From Mesorhizobium sp. (lineage in GTDB: Bacteria > Pseudomonadota > Alphaproteobacteria > Rhizobiales > Rhizobiaceae), in assembly GCF_016793485.1 (NCBI RefSeq), contig NZ_JAEULZ010000001.1, positions 558,001 to 622,000 on the forward strand: 64,000 nucleotides of DNA, written 5' to 3'. Position numbers and translations under genes: made by a program. Numbering within the stretch: position 1 is the first letter of the stretch; every line of letters starts with the position of its first letter. Below are positions 2,896 through 55,251 of this stretch, in pieces. The notes under the pieces were generated by a model, which searched no databases, had not been told where the DNA came from, and saw only the letters and a program-made list of their open reading frames with translations.

Positions 2896-2982
2896 AATGC
2901 TCTCCCTGCTGGTTTCCCTGCATCAATGCGGGAAACGCAAGAGGGTTCCGTCGTCAGATTGAGAGCAACCAGTTCGGCATGC

Positions 2983-3160
2983 ACCGCGACTCGCGAAGCG
3001 TCAGACTCCTCACGTGCCTCCACCGCCCGTGCCTGGATCTACAGGTGGCGATGTCGTCTGGGCGGTTACGGACTGCAACAGCAAGATGGACTTCTCCAGG
3101 GTAGGCTTCAGGTAGGATTTACGCGAAAGCGATCGAAGCATTCTACTCTCCGATTGTTGT
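2983..3160. repeat. Diverged direct repeat, copy 1 (contains a RiPP-like peptide gene)
   Basis: About 175 bases that align without large gaps to 4677-4853 in the same orientation. A central block reading CTGGATCTACAGGTGGCGAT in the plus sense is identical in both. The repeat is explained by the paralogous 43-codon genes inside it plus conserved flanks, including a shared 3' segment (GCGACTCGCSAAGCGT). Confidence 0.8.
3010..3141 (-). CDS. RiPP-precursor-like peptide, copy 1 (43 residues)
   Basis: A 43-residue peptide absent from usual gene calls. The N-terminal part is basic and hydrophobic and holds YLKPTL (residues 10-15), matching the YxxPxL leader motif recognised by RiPP recognition elements in proteobacterial lasso-type systems. 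It is followed by LLLQSVTA. The C-terminal part is TTSPPVDPGTGGGGT. The second copy (4704-4835) is identical at 30 of 43 positions and 18 of the last 19, while several codons differ only at synonymous third positions, which argues for selection on the peptide. An SD-like GGAGAG precedes the ATG. No cyclase, RRE protein or protease gene lies nearby, so modification is inference. Confidence 0.6.
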   Translation of the reverse strand: MLRSLSRKSYLKPTLEKSILLLQSVTAQTTSPPVDPGTGGGGT

Positions 3161-3271
3161 CGCCCCCAGAGAGTGGACGATGCAATAGATCAACTCATCA
3201 CGTCAAATTGGCCAAGACGCTTTGCGGTCGCCTAAAGCGTGAAGACAGATTCCGAGGCTTACTGCCGGGCA

Positions 3272-3300
3272 ACAAAAAAGCGGGCCGTAAGCCCGCTTCC
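3272..3300 (-). terminator. Rho-independent terminator for minus-strand transcription
   Basis: Read on the minus strand, GCGGGCTTACGGCCCGC is followed by TTTTTTG, a classic stem and T-run. It lies downstream of the degraded minus-strand gene at 3397-3787 and would end its transcript before the RiPP-like copy 1. Confidence 0.8.
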
Positions 3301-3396
3301 CTTCGTTTCCGAGATTTACCTGGCGCCGGTTCATTCGTGGTCGCCAAACAATCGATCGGTACAAATAACCGCCTCAAACTGGGGGATCTCACGGAC

Positions 3397-3787
3397 TATC
3401 TGTCCAGACCTTCCCGCACCAAGGAGGCGATACGGTGCATGTATGTAGCCATTGCGGCAGCTTCAAGGCCCAGCGGAGCAATGCCTGTCTTTTCTATCCA
3501 GCGTCGTCGGGTGCGGTCGCTCGCCCACTTGCGGGAAACTCCTGGAGTAGCTTGTCAGCTATCTCGTCACCGTCCTCATCGACGAACTCGACGACTACAC
3601 CGCGCGACATGGCGATCGAGGCCTGTCCTCGATCAAAAAGAATTCCAACCCCGGACAAGTCTGCAAACCCCAGGACTGCCTGCTCTATCTCGATGAGCGG
3701 CACCCCGGGGTGCGCTGCTGCCGGTGAATGTAGAATTTCAAGCCGACGATGCCAATAACAAAAGTTAAAAAGTGCAAATAAAATCAA
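3397..3787 (-). pseudogene. Degraded or frameshifted small gene of unknown function
   Basis: Two overlapping minus-strand frames both look coding. The first (3494-3787) contains GVVVEFVDEDGDEIADKLL and ends in PDDAG. The second (3397 to about 3552) carries SRKWASDRTRRRWIEKTG then GIAPLGLEAAAMATYMHRI and ends LVREGLDR, with no good start codon of its own before an internal ATG at 3452. The terminator at 3272-3300 lies downstream. The simplest reading is one gene with a frameshift near 3530, or two overlapping short genes. I do not recognise the family. Confidence 0.35.
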
Positions 3788-3888
3788 TTAGTTAGTAAGC
3801 TTGTAATGTGCTGCTCCTTATCCATTGATGGCAAGACGCTAACAACGGGTATTTGGAACCATCTGCGTCACTCGCGCATTATGTGCTA

Positions 3889-3904
3889 GAGTAGTAACTT
3901 ACTC
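3889..3904. promoter_or_regulatory. Inverted repeat upstream of the RHH gene, possible operator
   Basis: GAGTA-N6-TACTC sits 13 bases before the start codon of the ribbon-helix-helix gene and just upstream of its SD (GAGGGGG). RHH repressors often bind short inverted repeats in their own promoters, so autoregulation is plausible but not shown. Confidence 0.35.
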
Positions 3905-3917
3905 ATGAGGGGGCATC

Positions 3918-4157
3918 ATGGCATTTTTGGAAAGACCGGAACGGCTACAGGTCATGTTGAGCGCGGACGAACTCGTGGCGCTCGATAGCTGGCGATTTGA
4001 CAAGCGTATGCCCAGTCGAGCAGCCGCAGTACGAGAACTGTTGCGCCGTGGCCTGGCAGCGGATGGTTTTCTTTCAGCTGCCCAGAGCAGCAAATCTGGC
4101 GATTTCGGAATTCTAGCCGACAAATCATCAAGCGTAGACGACGAAAACGAGCGGTAA
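3918..4157 (+). CDS. Ribbon-helix-helix-type small regulator
   Basis: A 79-residue protein whose first half (ERPERLQVMLSADELVALD, then RMPSRAAAVRELLRRGL) follows the ribbon-helix-helix pattern: a short beta strand, helix A, a turn with S/R, then helix B. Such proteins bind DNA as dimers; many are antitoxins or autorepressors. No toxin gene follows within the next 100 bases, so a solitary regulator is more likely. The C-terminal third is acidic and probably disordered. A strong SD (GAGGGGG) fixes the ATG at 3918. A hairpin terminator follows at 4213. Confidence 0.75.
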   Translation: MAFLERPERLQVMLSADELVALDSWRFDKRMPSRAAAVRELLRRGLAADGFLSAAQSSKSGDFGILADKSSSVDDENER

Positions 4158-4212
4158 TCTGGAACTTTCCCGGGCGGCCGTCGTTATTCAAACACCCCGA
4201 CTATCCTGCCTC

Positions 4213-4250
4213 AAAAGGCCTGCCGAGCCTCCAGCCGGCGGGCCTTTCCT
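4213..4250. terminator. Bidirectional terminator between convergent small genes
   Basis: AAAAGGCCTGCCG and CGGCGGGCCTTT form a stem with T-rich flanks on both strands, between the plus-strand RHH gene and the minus-strand secreted protein gene. Confidence 0.75.
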
Positions 4251-4271
4251 TATTGGGAGTCTGGCGGGCGA

Positions 4272-4592
4272 TCACCGCCTGCCGATGCGACGAACGTCGA
4301 CAATACGGCCATCCCACTGTCTGACTGCGATCTCGAACCGTGTGTTTCCACGCGATGCCCTATAGACGAAGAAGCGACCGCGACAGTCTATACGACGAAC
4401 GTCGCGGAACCCGCGGCTGCGCAGAATGCGTTCGCCCTGGCTGCAGGTTATACCCCGTCCTTGATTGAGGTTGGTTCCAATTCTGATGTCGATGCTGACA
4501 CTGGATTGGGCTAACGCCACTGTAGGAAGCCCCAGCGGTGAGGCGAAGAGGCAGAGAGATATTCCTATCGACAGAAACCAAGATCTAGTCAT
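4272..4592 (-). CDS. Small secreted basic protein
   Basis: A 106-residue protein starting MTRSWFLSIG with a clear Sec signal peptide (hydrophobic core LCLFASPLGLPTVALAQ). The mature part is basic, with two cysteines (ITCSQGERILRSRGFRDV and IDCRGRFFVY) that could form a disulphide. The ATG at 4592 has an ideal SD (AAGGAG, 7 bases upstream); the frame is open further upstream but lacks one there. Comparable short periplasmic proteins occur in rhizobia, with no known role. It lies 111 bases downstream of RiPP-like copy 2 on the same strand, so read-through from that gene is possible. Confidence 0.75.
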   Translation of the reverse strand: MTRSWFLSIGISLCLFASPLGLPTVALAQSSVSIDIRIGTNLNQGRGITCSQGERILRSRGFRDVRRIDCRGRFFVYRASRGNTRFEIAVRQWDGRIVDVRRIGRR

Positions 4593-4676
4593 CGCGATCT
4601 CCTTACCAGTAAGGCTGAGTCCGTATCCAACCACCAAGTGCAGAGCGCTGCAACGGCCAGTTGGCGACGCACGTAT

Positions 4677-4853
4677 GCAGCGACTCGCCAAGCGTTAGAC
4701 CCCTCAGGTGCCTCCTCCGCCCGTGTCTGGATCTACAGGTGGCGATGTCGTCTGCGCAGTCACTAACTGCAGCAGCATGAGGGACTTTTTGAGTGTGGGT
4801 CTGTTGTACGGACGACGCGAAGAAAGCTGAAACATTCTTGCCCTCCCAACTGT
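4677..4853. repeat. Diverged direct repeat, copy 2 (contains a RiPP-like peptide gene)
   Basis: Partner of the repeat at 2983-3160, same orientation, 1.7 kb away. Similarity is highest over the last 19 codons of the enclosed peptide gene and falls off toward both edges. Confidence 0.8.
4704..4835 (-). CDS. RiPP-precursor-like peptide, copy 2 (43 residues)
   Basis: Paralogue of the peptide at 3010-3141, exactly the same length. It carries YNRPTL (residues 10-15, matching YxxPxL), LLQLVTA and the tail TTSPPVDPDTGGGGT. The SD GGGAGG is ideally spaced before ATG 4835. If cleavage follows VTA, an Asp lies at core position 8, which is where lasso peptides place the ring-closing acid; the core would start with Gln, which is unusual. 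The conserved leader and tail with a variable N-terminus fit a modified secreted peptide, but a plain small protein cannot be excluded. Confidence 0.62.
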   Translation of the reverse strand: MFQLSSRRPYNRPTLKKSLMLLQLVTAQTTSPPVDPDTGGGGT

Positions 4854-4870
4854 TCAGTTGCGGCATCCAG

Positions 4871-4897
4871 AATTTATGCGACCATAGGTAGAGTCAA
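4871..4897 (-). promoter_or_regulatory. Candidate promoter for RiPP-like copy 2
   Basis: On the minus strand TTGACT (4897-4892) and TAAATT (4876-4871) are separated by 15 bases, slightly short of the ideal 17. The TTGACT lies 62 bases upstream of the start; copy 1 has a TTGACG at a similar distance (65 bases), which supports a conserved promoter position. Confidence 0.35.
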
Positions 4898-5036
4898 ACG
4901 CTTCGCTCTGTCGATACCTGTTGCCCAAAAGTAACGCAGGCCAATCGAAAAAACTCGATAGGTAGTTGATTTTGAAGGGCGACTTGCGAGCGCCACCCCT
5001 AAATGCAGTATGCGGTCCATGGGTTTGGGGAAGCCA

Positions 5037-6002
5037 ATGTATCGCTCACTTTTGCATGTTTTCGTTGTCGGTGGACTTGCTGTGTCCTCATTCTCAGCAT
5101 TTGCCGCTGATGACCTGGATACGTACACGGATCGACGCATTATGGGGTTCGGGGAAGCTTATCTCGGAGGACTCCGTGTCGTTCCTTATTTCGACAACGC
5201 AGAGACCAAAAACAACCTGATTGCCGGCGGTGCCGCGAGGGTCAATATTCCGGTTCCGTCAAATTTCAACCTGCAGATCGACGGCTTGGTAGACACCATT
5301 TTCGACGGCGAAAGGTTCGGCGGCGCACCTGGTCTCGACGCATTTGACTACAACGTCACGAATTTCGGCGGCGCCGGCCATTTCTACTGGCGCAATCCCG
5401 AGCGCTTCGCTTTTGGTATCATGGGAAGCTGGACACGGTACAACTACGAGGACATTGGATCGTTTGACCCCGTCGAGGGGTACACCGGTGAAACGCGATA
5501 TCACGACCTCAAGACTGGTGGCTTTGACGCGCAGATCTATCTTGATCGCTGGACACTGTACGGCCAAGCCTATCTCGGAGAGCGTACGAGACGTTATTTC
5601 AATCCCAACACCGGAGAAGATTCACTGGATTACCAGTTCTGGGGGCTTCGAGGCGTCGTGCGCTATTATCAGACAGACAATCTGCGCTTTGATGCTGAGG
5701 TAGGCTACGGTCAGGAAGATCTATCCGCGTTCGAAGAGATTGCTGACTATACCGTGAATACTTGGCAATTCGCGGCTCAGGCGACCTACCGCTTCGAGGA
5801 AAGCCCGATCTCCGTTTTTGGACGGTACCAGTTCGAGAGCCGGGATCAGGAAGGCGAAGATATCTTCGGTGCACCGCTCCCGGACTTCCACCGCTTTTTG
5901 GTCGGCATAAGGTATTCGTTCGGTTCCGGTTCGCTTCTCGATGAAGAACGTAATGGCCCGGCGATGGACACCTTGCAACGCACGAGCGTGCTGAGAAGAT
6001 AA
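5037..6002 (+). CDS. Outer-membrane beta-barrel protein
   Basis: A 321-residue protein with a signal peptide (MYRSLLHVFVVGGLAVSSFSAFA) and a mature part made of alternating aromatic/hydrophobic strands such as FAFGIMGSWTRYNY, WTLYGQAYLGERT and FLVGIRYSF. The last strand motif F-x-V-G-x-R-Y-x-F is typical of outer-membrane barrels, although a C-terminal extension of about 25 residues follows it. It has no recognisable porin selectivity loop, so substrate and role are unknown. ATG 5037 gives the best signal peptide; an upstream ATG at 5010 is also in frame. Confidence 0.75.
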   Translation: MYRSLLHVFVVGGLAVSSFSAFAADDLDTYTDRRIMGFGEAYLGGLRVVPYFDNAETKNNLIAGGAARVNIPVPSNFNLQIDGLVDTIFDGERFGGAPGLDAFDYNVTNFGGAGHFYWRNPERFAFGIMGSWTRYNYEDIGSFDPVEGYTGETRYHDLKTGGFDAQIYLDRWTLYGQAYLGERTRRYFNPNTGEDSLDYQFWGLRGVVRYYQTDNLRFDAEVGYGQEDLSAFEEIADYTVNTWQFAAQATYRFEESPISVFGRYQFESRDQEGEDIFGAPLPDFHRFLVGIRYSFGSGSLLDEERNGPAMDTLQRTSVLRR

Positions 6003-6312
6003 GATGCGGCCAAACCGGCTGGAACGGGTTGGCCCATCAGACACGTGATCAAGAGTTGGTCCACGGCGAAAGGCAAAAACCGCGCCTGCAGTGCGCGGTC
6101 TTGCCATTCAACGCATGGCCCCTCACGTACTGTACGCTGCGAGGGTAACGGCTCCGGTACGCGAGACCTGATCCGGAGCGTCGGGCGGCTGCGATGTCCG
6201 CCGTGCAATCCGTTGTAGAGGGACATTCTTACCGCGTGGTTATCGAGAGCTTAAGCAAACCTAAATTTGCGATTTTTTTGATTAAATTGCGTTTCCGTCG
6301 CGTCAGCCTTCG
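6003..6312. other. Intergenic region with a weak terminator hairpin
   Basis: About 310 bases without a credible gene. It contains a hairpin at about 6074-6105 (ACCGCGC-N5-GTGCGCGGT) that may end the barrel transcript. The stretch at about 6240-6290 is AT-rich and probably holds the promoter of the cupin-cobQ unit. I searched for a cobalamin riboswitch here because cobQ follows and saw no convincing B12 box or core. Confidence 0.5.
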
Positions 6313-55165: not shown

Positions 55166-55251
55166 GCGGACGTGGCGGAACTGGTAGACGCAAGGGACTT
55201 AAAATCCCTCAGCCACTGGCTATGCGGGTTCGATTCCCGCCGTCCGCACCA
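55166..55251 (+). tRNA. tRNA-Leu (anticodon TAA)
   Basis: An 86-base tRNA including encoded CCA. Acceptor stem GCGGACG/CGTCCGC, D-arm TGGCGGAACTGGTAGACGC, anticodon arm GGGACTTAAAATCCC with TAA, long variable arm as expected for Leu, and T-arm GCGGGTTCGATTCCCGC. The prophage-type region begins immediately downstream, and tRNA-Leu 3' ends are common integration sites. Confidence 0.97.

Follow-up and report, generated by a model that had tools for sequence, protein, structure and literature searches.

What are the two 43-amino-acid (aa) open reading frames (ORFs) that lie close together in a 64,000-nucleotide stretch of a Mesorhizobium sp. genome, and which enzymes act on their products? The stretch, hereafter the window, covers positions 558,001 to 622,000 of contig NZ_JAEULZ010000001.1 (C49 of the source genome, G000). 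A preliminary description had read the two ORFs as paralogous precursors of a ribosomally synthesized and posttranslationally modified peptide (RiPP) with a lasso-type leader. We found that they belong to a family of short peptides with conserved leaders, and that a cassette of maturation genes lies elsewhere in the genome. We propose that they are probably precursors of a RiPP system made of lasso-peptide parts without the lasso cyclase, whose products would be linear phosphopeptides matured in trans.

Both ORFs were found on the minus strand exactly where the preliminary description had placed them (Table 1). The two copies are identical at 98 of 132 nucleotides (nt) and homologous (tblastn E value of 9.6e-15); their similarity extends about 25 nt beyond the stop codon, and the 120 nt upstream align poorly (47/125 columns). 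A scan for the leader motif gave two matches within the window and none in each of 30 trinucleotide shuffles. On these grounds, and given the 19-member family described below, we rejected chance ORFs. The near-identical tail noted earlier is real: among the last 19 residues, 18 agree between the copies, with five synonymous codon changes (residues 25, 26, 27, 40, and 43) and one replacement (G37D). NG86 values of nonsynonymous and synonymous divergence (dN/dS) between the copies were 0.43/1.04 for the first 24 codons and 0.026/0.36 for the last 19; the latter are based on six changes, so that counts are small, and the direction of the pattern fits the selection on the peptide tail that had been suggested. 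No match of either peptide to Pfam or NCBIfam was listed at E values up to 10; the HMMER filters remove most weak ones.

The stretch around the pair is lineage specific: three congeners (G001, G002, and G003) match by blastn on both flanks but have no match to it at the corresponding position. This location, on a contig other than those of the enzymes and with poorly conserved upstream DNA, would suit window copies that are cut off from the pathway as decaying or unexpressed leftovers of a duplication. We consider this unlikely, given the intact frames, the sites resembling ribosome-binding sites (RBSs), and the five synonymous changes against one replacement in the tail.

A profile built from 18 copies of the source genome found 19 short paralogs there, window pair included. 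Ten form a tandem array at C49:630,969-632,743, 9 kb past the window (C49:558,001-622,000), and the others are on C21 (two), C12 (two), C40, C13, and C9 (one each). As in RiPP precursors, the leader is kept among these copies and the tail varies; the tails are most alike in the window pair. The leader consensus is YxKPTLxKREKLSxVTA or YEKPxLRKSxVLLQSVTAQ, and the motif YxxPxL...VTA is present in the family leaders, which upholds their earlier assignment to the lasso type. With the same narrow profile, the family was found in 3 of 61 relatives, the source genome counted. A broader profile, including leaders of two congeners, revealed precursors in 19 of 394 same-family (Rhizobiaceae) genomes, from 10 of 109 genera, at E values of ≤1e-3; several genomes have them in tandem. 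Up to 19 precursor and up to 5 kinase candidates were scored per genome in the surveys of the 394 genomes, and copy numbers are lower bounds.

The preliminary description had placed any modifying enzymes outside the window, and there we found candidates for them. On C13, the single precursor is in head-to-head orientation with a gene row for a PqqD-type RiPP recognition element (RRE), an HPr-kinase-like protein (here, the kinase), and an NTP_transf_5 protein (the nucleotidyltransferase); an AMP-ligase and two GNATs are encoded on its other side. The GNAT gene is duplicated in tandem (L014 5,046-6,150, minus strand; G000:C13), the copies being 73% identical. The leader peptidase, of the B2 type, is encoded on a separate contig, C46. 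In the congener G002, ten precursors lie in the middle, with RRE, B2 peptidase, and kinase before them and AMP-ligase, GNAT, and NTP_transf_5 after them, in that order.

We surveyed the 394 genomes for the kinase without regard to precursors, using a profile of 8 kinases at E values of ≤1e-20. The kinase was present in 23, and all 19 precursor genomes fall within these 23 (Fisher p of 8e-29, uncorrected for relatedness). Both groups of genomes come from the same 10 genera out of 109, and in genera g1 and g14 one member each (G003 and G016) lacks both. Evaluation of 20 kb around each of the 23 kinase genes (15 kb for the source genome) revealed the RRE in 23/23, the B2 peptidase in 22/23 (that of the source genome being on C46), and NTP_transf_5 in 22/23 (not in G001). 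AMP-ligase and GNAT were near the kinase in 11/23, source genome included, and were not found in what was fetched around the remaining 12. Precursors were located near the kinase in 13/23 by script (two of them weak, at 12 to 17 bits), and additionally in G300; in the other nine kinase genomes they are elsewhere or below threshold. A class-wide search found the kinase only in the source genome among 385 drawn, with a family-built profile that could miss distant kinases, and plasmids gave no match to the G002 kinase at E values of ≤1e-10.

We then analyzed the cassette proteins. The RRE corresponds to PF05402 (45.6 bits; cut-off, 23.4), and the best PDB matches of a nine-member RRE profile are the lasso RREs TfuB1 (9.8e-13) and TbiB1 (4.5e-8). 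All eight aligned B2 members match NF033537 (lasso_biosyn_B2; 53.8 bits for the protein of the source genome; cut-off, 33) and Transglut_core3, and Cys74 and His111 are invariant in the eight. The NTP_transf_5 protein matches PF14907 (81.7 bits) and the GNAT PF13302; the AMP-ligase resembles acyl-CoA synthetases, under their curated cut-offs, and is 54 to 76% identical to the ligases of four relatives. HPr kinases and phosphoenolpyruvate (PEP) carboxykinases share a fold. A model of the kinase (pLDDT of 86) matched PEP carboxykinases in Foldseek (best E value of 2.6e-9; TM by query, ∼0.4 to 0.5), with no HPr kinase among the best 50 matches listed, and the kinase profile reached HprK structures at 9e-5. 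His156, Lys179, Asp196, and Asp197 are invariant in 8/8 kinases and, in our own mapping, fit the His, Lys, Asp, and Asp described for lasso kinases (PMC9266682).

Does the cassette make a lasso peptide, as had been supposed? In the 20 kb fetched for each of the 23 kinases, no asparagine-synthetase-type cyclase was found. The source genome, rated 100% complete, has no full Asn_synthase domain, since PF00733 gave one short 31-bit match at E values of ≤1e-5 and others weaker; G157 (95% complete) has none either, with merely a 32-bit match. The remaining 13 of 15 tested genomes have longer, stronger Asn_synthase matches somewhere in the genome. To look at the cores, we collected 85 precursors, located in the window and in the loci fetched, that reached ≥12 bits with the profile and carried the leader pattern, a set that does not take in every match of the family survey. 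Cut after VTA, their cores have a median of 11 residues and a minimum of 6 (one weak outlier has 46). The Asp described at core position 8 is real in both window copies and is not a family feature: Asp or Glu occurs at core positions 7 to 9 in 8/19 cores of the source genome and in 18/85 overall, window copies included, and anywhere in the core in 38/85. The family thus has a YxxPxL leader with Thr near the cut, a discrete RRE (B1), and a B2 leader peptidase, and we found neither the macrolactam cyclase (C) nor a ring acid at 7 to 9 as a shared trait; the proposed search of the same genome for all three enzymes likewise returned the PqqD-like RRE and the B2 peptidase and no full Asn_synthase domain. 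Because no cyclase was found and most cores are without the acid at positions 7 to 9 that closing a lasso ring requires, we set the lasso product aside in favor of a linear one.

One may still argue that these are ordinary lasso precursors served by a cyclase that is encoded elsewhere or has diverged beyond recognition. Leader, RRE, and B2 are all of the lasso type, the leaders weakly match lasso precursor families (lasso_cyano, 4/14, best E value of 0.014; the paeninodin family, 1/14, E value of 0.15), both window copies have Asp at core 8, and five genomes of genus g97 have Asn_synthase genes ∼10 to 30 kb from the kinase. The two genomes without a full Asn_synthase domain, the low counts of acidic residues, and cores as short as 6 residues make this reading very unlikely in our view.

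The cores offer another common trait. Ser or Thr is present in all 85, and Ser is found at core positions 3 to 5 in 18/19 cores of the source genome (shuffle mean, 8.6) and in 39/66 of the others (shuffle mean, 22.1), values that 0 of 2,000 shuffles reached in either case. The cut site is uncertain. A cut after VTA places the leader Tyr at -17 in 62/85 precursors and at -18 in 23/85, the window copies among the latter; with the window-type leader, Tyr is at -17 if the cut falls after Thr, as in LppA, the precursor of linear polyphosphorylated peptides (LPPs) discussed below. For copy 1 this alternative cut would follow T26.

By analogy with the kinases BsfK and LppK (see below), we propose that the early Ser receives a phosphate and that a linear peptide is freed by B2. 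From homology and co-occurrence we infer the chemical steps, their order, the cut site, and the action of the C13/C46 cassette on the window copies. The stand-alone PqqD-like RRE (C13) would bind the leader at YxxPxL, and the HPr-kinase-like protein (C13) would phosphorylate a Ser near the core start, which in the window copies would be Ser4 of QTTS. The NTP_transf_5 protein would then modify the phosphate with a nucleotidyl or a sugar moiety, and the B2 cysteine peptidase (C46) would cleave at VT(A) or immediately behind it. AMP-ligase and GNAT may add an acyl group to the product, a role that is our guess. The product would be a short linear phosphopeptide, and a single cassette would serve the 19 precursors in trans.

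The AMP-ligase allows a different proposal, in which it replaces the cyclase: it would adenylate a core or terminal carboxyl and close a ring or join another group, giving a new cyclized RiPP class. Its presence together with GNAT in 11 of the 23 cassette genomes, the source genome among them, and the 54 to 76% identity of the four relatives' ligases speak for such a role. We nevertheless find it improbable, since no ligase was found in the fetched DNA of 12 of the 23 genomes and its resemblance to acyl-CoA synthetases, below curated cut-offs, fits N-acylation at least equally well.

The family leader also precedes a different kind of protein. In the source genome a twentieth ORF has this leader ahead of a Peptidase_S74 (endosialidase chaperone) domain (L170, G000:C21:245,796-246,110, minus strand; 30.9 bits; cut-off, 22), and the same fusion is found in G002 (L103) and G343 (L144, two copies). 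In the fusion search 31 of 337 genomes gave matches, with leader and Peptidase_S74 domain together only in these three, all of which have the kinase. The fusion could mean that the leaders recruit the machinery for other ends, such as tagging or regulating folded proteins, with the short peptides as decoys or signals; with the fusion in just 3/337 genomes and most precursors short-cored, we regard this as highly improbable. Returning to linear phosphopeptides, we tentatively suggest, with less confidence than in the proposal itself, that the system may be a separate RiPP class of the Rhizobiaceae. In it, one cyclase-less, lasso-derived cassette would act in trans on a scattered set of up to 19 precursors and yield short linear peptides with a phosphate, to which a nucleotidyl or sugar group is then added, and with an N-acyl group from the AMP-ligase/GNAT pair; the leader would also bring a folded Peptidase_S74 protein to the cassette.

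Several observations count against linear phosphopeptides made by this cassette. The main weakness is that all function is read from homology and co-occurrence, and the precursors have their phylogeny in common with the kinase. Four kinase genomes (G189, G249, G302, and G380), all of genus g109, are without a precursor at E values of ≤1e-3; two other g109 members, G111 and G343, have weak precursor matches. In the source genome the cassette is split by the placement of B2 on C46, and yet another contig holds the window genes. The counts of early Ser depend on core starts set by a rule that favors TA and on shuffles that ignore relatedness. As to the enzymes, the kinase scores under the Pfam and NCBIfam curated cut-offs, and superposition on its Foldseek matches is loose (root mean square deviation of 8 to 10). 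The third catalytic residue of lasso B2 peptidases is usually Asp; here it is apparently Asn or Gly at the expected place. With regard to the cyclase, one AsnB protein searched over 48 fetched loci gave a sole match, in L055 (10,766-12,817; G001:C84), where a precursor with the family leader directly precedes the AsnB-like gene; the core of this precursor has neither Asp nor Glu. The Asn_synthase genes of the five g97 genomes tested lie outside the fetched stretches and are too distant for a cluster, but they are not nothing. A second PqqD-containing set on C21 (L025, G000:C21:124,000-143,900) could be an alternative partner of the precursors. Finally, deletion of LppN in its Bacillota host changed nothing, so that an effect of the NTP_transf_5 protein is not visible in that system (PMC13381572).

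The C21 set itself, whose PqqD protein also matches PF05402, includes by eye an HprK-like protein, an NTP_transf_5-like protein, glycosyltransferases, and a small protein ending VQAQSGSSNMTNIF; it is perhaps a different RiPP-like system. Precursor-like sequences were also matched on the Mesorhizobium plasmids NZ_CP045499.1 (L156) and NZ_CP080533.1 (L157), with E values of 2e-5 and a weak 8e-3; one has no listed gene and the other is within a "hypothetical protein," and an incomplete gene table lists no maturation genes within 4 kb of either. DUF6065 genes adjoin precursors in five genomes (L096 9,995-10,753, minus strand, plus G202, G332, G002 on C11, and G001 on C8). We rejected DUF6065 as a core part of the cassette, as it is present in 22/394 genomes and just 6 of these have the kinase.

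Table 1. Features of the precursor pair (window positions)
Feature	Position	Strand	Remarks
Precursor peptide gene 1 (43 aa)	3010..3141	-	Candidate RBS GGAG at -10
Leader, copy 1 (YLKPTL ... QSVTA), residues 1-27, if cut after VTA	3061..3141	-	Predicted from alignment and lasso leader numbering
Core, copy 1, QTTSPPVDPGTGGGGT	3013..3060	-	Ser31 at 3049-3051, putative phosphorylation site
Precursor peptide gene 2 (43 aa)	4704..4835	-	Candidate RBS GGAGG at -11
Leader, copy 2 (YNRPTL ... QLVTA)	4755..4835	-	Predicted from alignment and lasso leader numbering
Core, copy 2, QTTSPPVDPDTGGGGT	4707..4754	-	Ser31 at 4743-4745, putative phosphorylation site
TTGAC element upstream of copy 1	3202..3206	-	Weak evidence for promoter
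TTGAC element upstream of copy 2	4893..4897	-	Weak evidence for promoter
Lineage-specific stretch holding the pair	2930..6068	.	blastn against congeners

The TTGAC elements reported upstream of both starts are at positions -65 and -62, as described (chance expectation, 0.07 per 120 nt). Before the 17 other copies of the source genome, TTGAC is at -44 in two and at -109 in one and was not found in 14, which is why we take it as weak evidence of a shared promoter. Between the window precursors, a 222-bp stretch (3,892-4,110) is 74% identical to L011 9,550-9,770 (G000:C12), ∼2 kb from a C12 precursor. Just beyond the lineage-specific stretch, ∼210 to 225 nt of window 6,069-6,293 are 90 to 95% identical in the three congeners, neighboring matches being at ∼72 to 82%; the segment shows by eye a GC hairpin and a T run on the minus strand, reaches the threshold of no Rfam family, and is a possible small RNA. 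Toward the other end of the window, 56 bp of the 3' part of a tRNA-Leu (55,196-55,251) are exactly repeated at L009 10,636-10,691 (both G000:C49), and the two repeats frame ∼17 kb in which, by eye, there are phage-like genes and one resembling an integrase gene. The precursor array starts ∼0.3 kb beyond the second repeat and may therefore once have been just downstream of the tRNA. Another precursor, on C21, begins ∼180 bp from a tRNA-His.

A rhizobial system of the present kind was not found in the open literature searched, subscription papers being mostly outside its scope, and a word search of PMC12710340 gave no mention of kinase, nucleotidyltransferase, or Rhizobi. According to the RRE-Finder paper, only ∼4,000 of almost 8,000 proteins retrieved with the discrete lasso RRE model co-occur with a leader peptidase and a cyclase; systems such as the present cassette may belong to the remainder. 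Many of the precursors are far from the enzymes, and neighborhood-based mining would therefore miss them. With one enzyme set, many precursors, kept leaders, and variable cores, this would be a natural multisubstrate system, and the cassette offers a setting for probing NTP_transf_5, whose role is not visible in the Bacillota system. Cyclase-less phosphopeptide logic in a conserved cassette with a B2 peptidase outside the Bacillota, in Alphaproteobacteria, would point to lasso machinery without its cyclase, whether by loss or from the beginning, on more than one occasion.

Among known systems, the phosphorylated lasso peptides of the Bsf type (PMC10368454) share the B1, B2, K, and N genes, and BsfK, helped by the RRE, phosphorylates Ser3 of the core. 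Their YxxPxL motif is at -17 to -12, the spacing seen in 62/85 of our precursors if these are cut after VTA. Unlike our cassettes, where no cyclase was found and a transporter was sought by eye only, the Bsf system has a cyclase C and a transporter D. Paeninodin and pseudomycoidin (PMC8498205, PMC9266682) also have an HprK-like kinase, joined in pseudomycoidin by a nucleotidyltransferase, PsmN, which has been linked to a hexose on the phosphate (PMC9266682). Their products are threaded lassos modified at a C-terminal Ser, whereas 6/19 cores of the source genome end in Ser or Thr.

The closest parallel in logic is with the LPPs (Nat Commun, May 2026; PMC13381572), which are cyclase-less and, according to their authors, restricted to Bacillota. 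LppK phosphorylates Ser3 of the LppA core, which begins AQSNWK, and two peptides of our array read VT-AQSN. Both systems have a stand-alone RRE, an HprK-like kinase, an NTP transferase, a YxxP leader, and Ser near the core start, and no macrolactam cyclase. The LPP leader peptidase is an archaeal-type signal peptidase, unlike the lasso-type B2 of our cassette; the flanks of 8 cassettes, read by eye without profile searches for a signal peptidase I or a transporter, gave no sign of the MsbA-like transporter that is an LPP feature. The LPP leader motif, YxxPxVLxHQxIxFETxxS, differs from both consensus leaders given above. The cores also differ, with a median of 11 residues here and 45 in LppA, as do the number and placement of the precursors (up to 19 here, dispersed), and AMP-ligase and GNAT occur in 11/23 of our cassettes and set these apart from LPPs. 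For want of a cyclase we did not file the system as lasso, and for its different leader motif and peptidase we did not file it as LPP: in its proposed working it resembles an LPP system, and its components are those of lasso biosynthesis.

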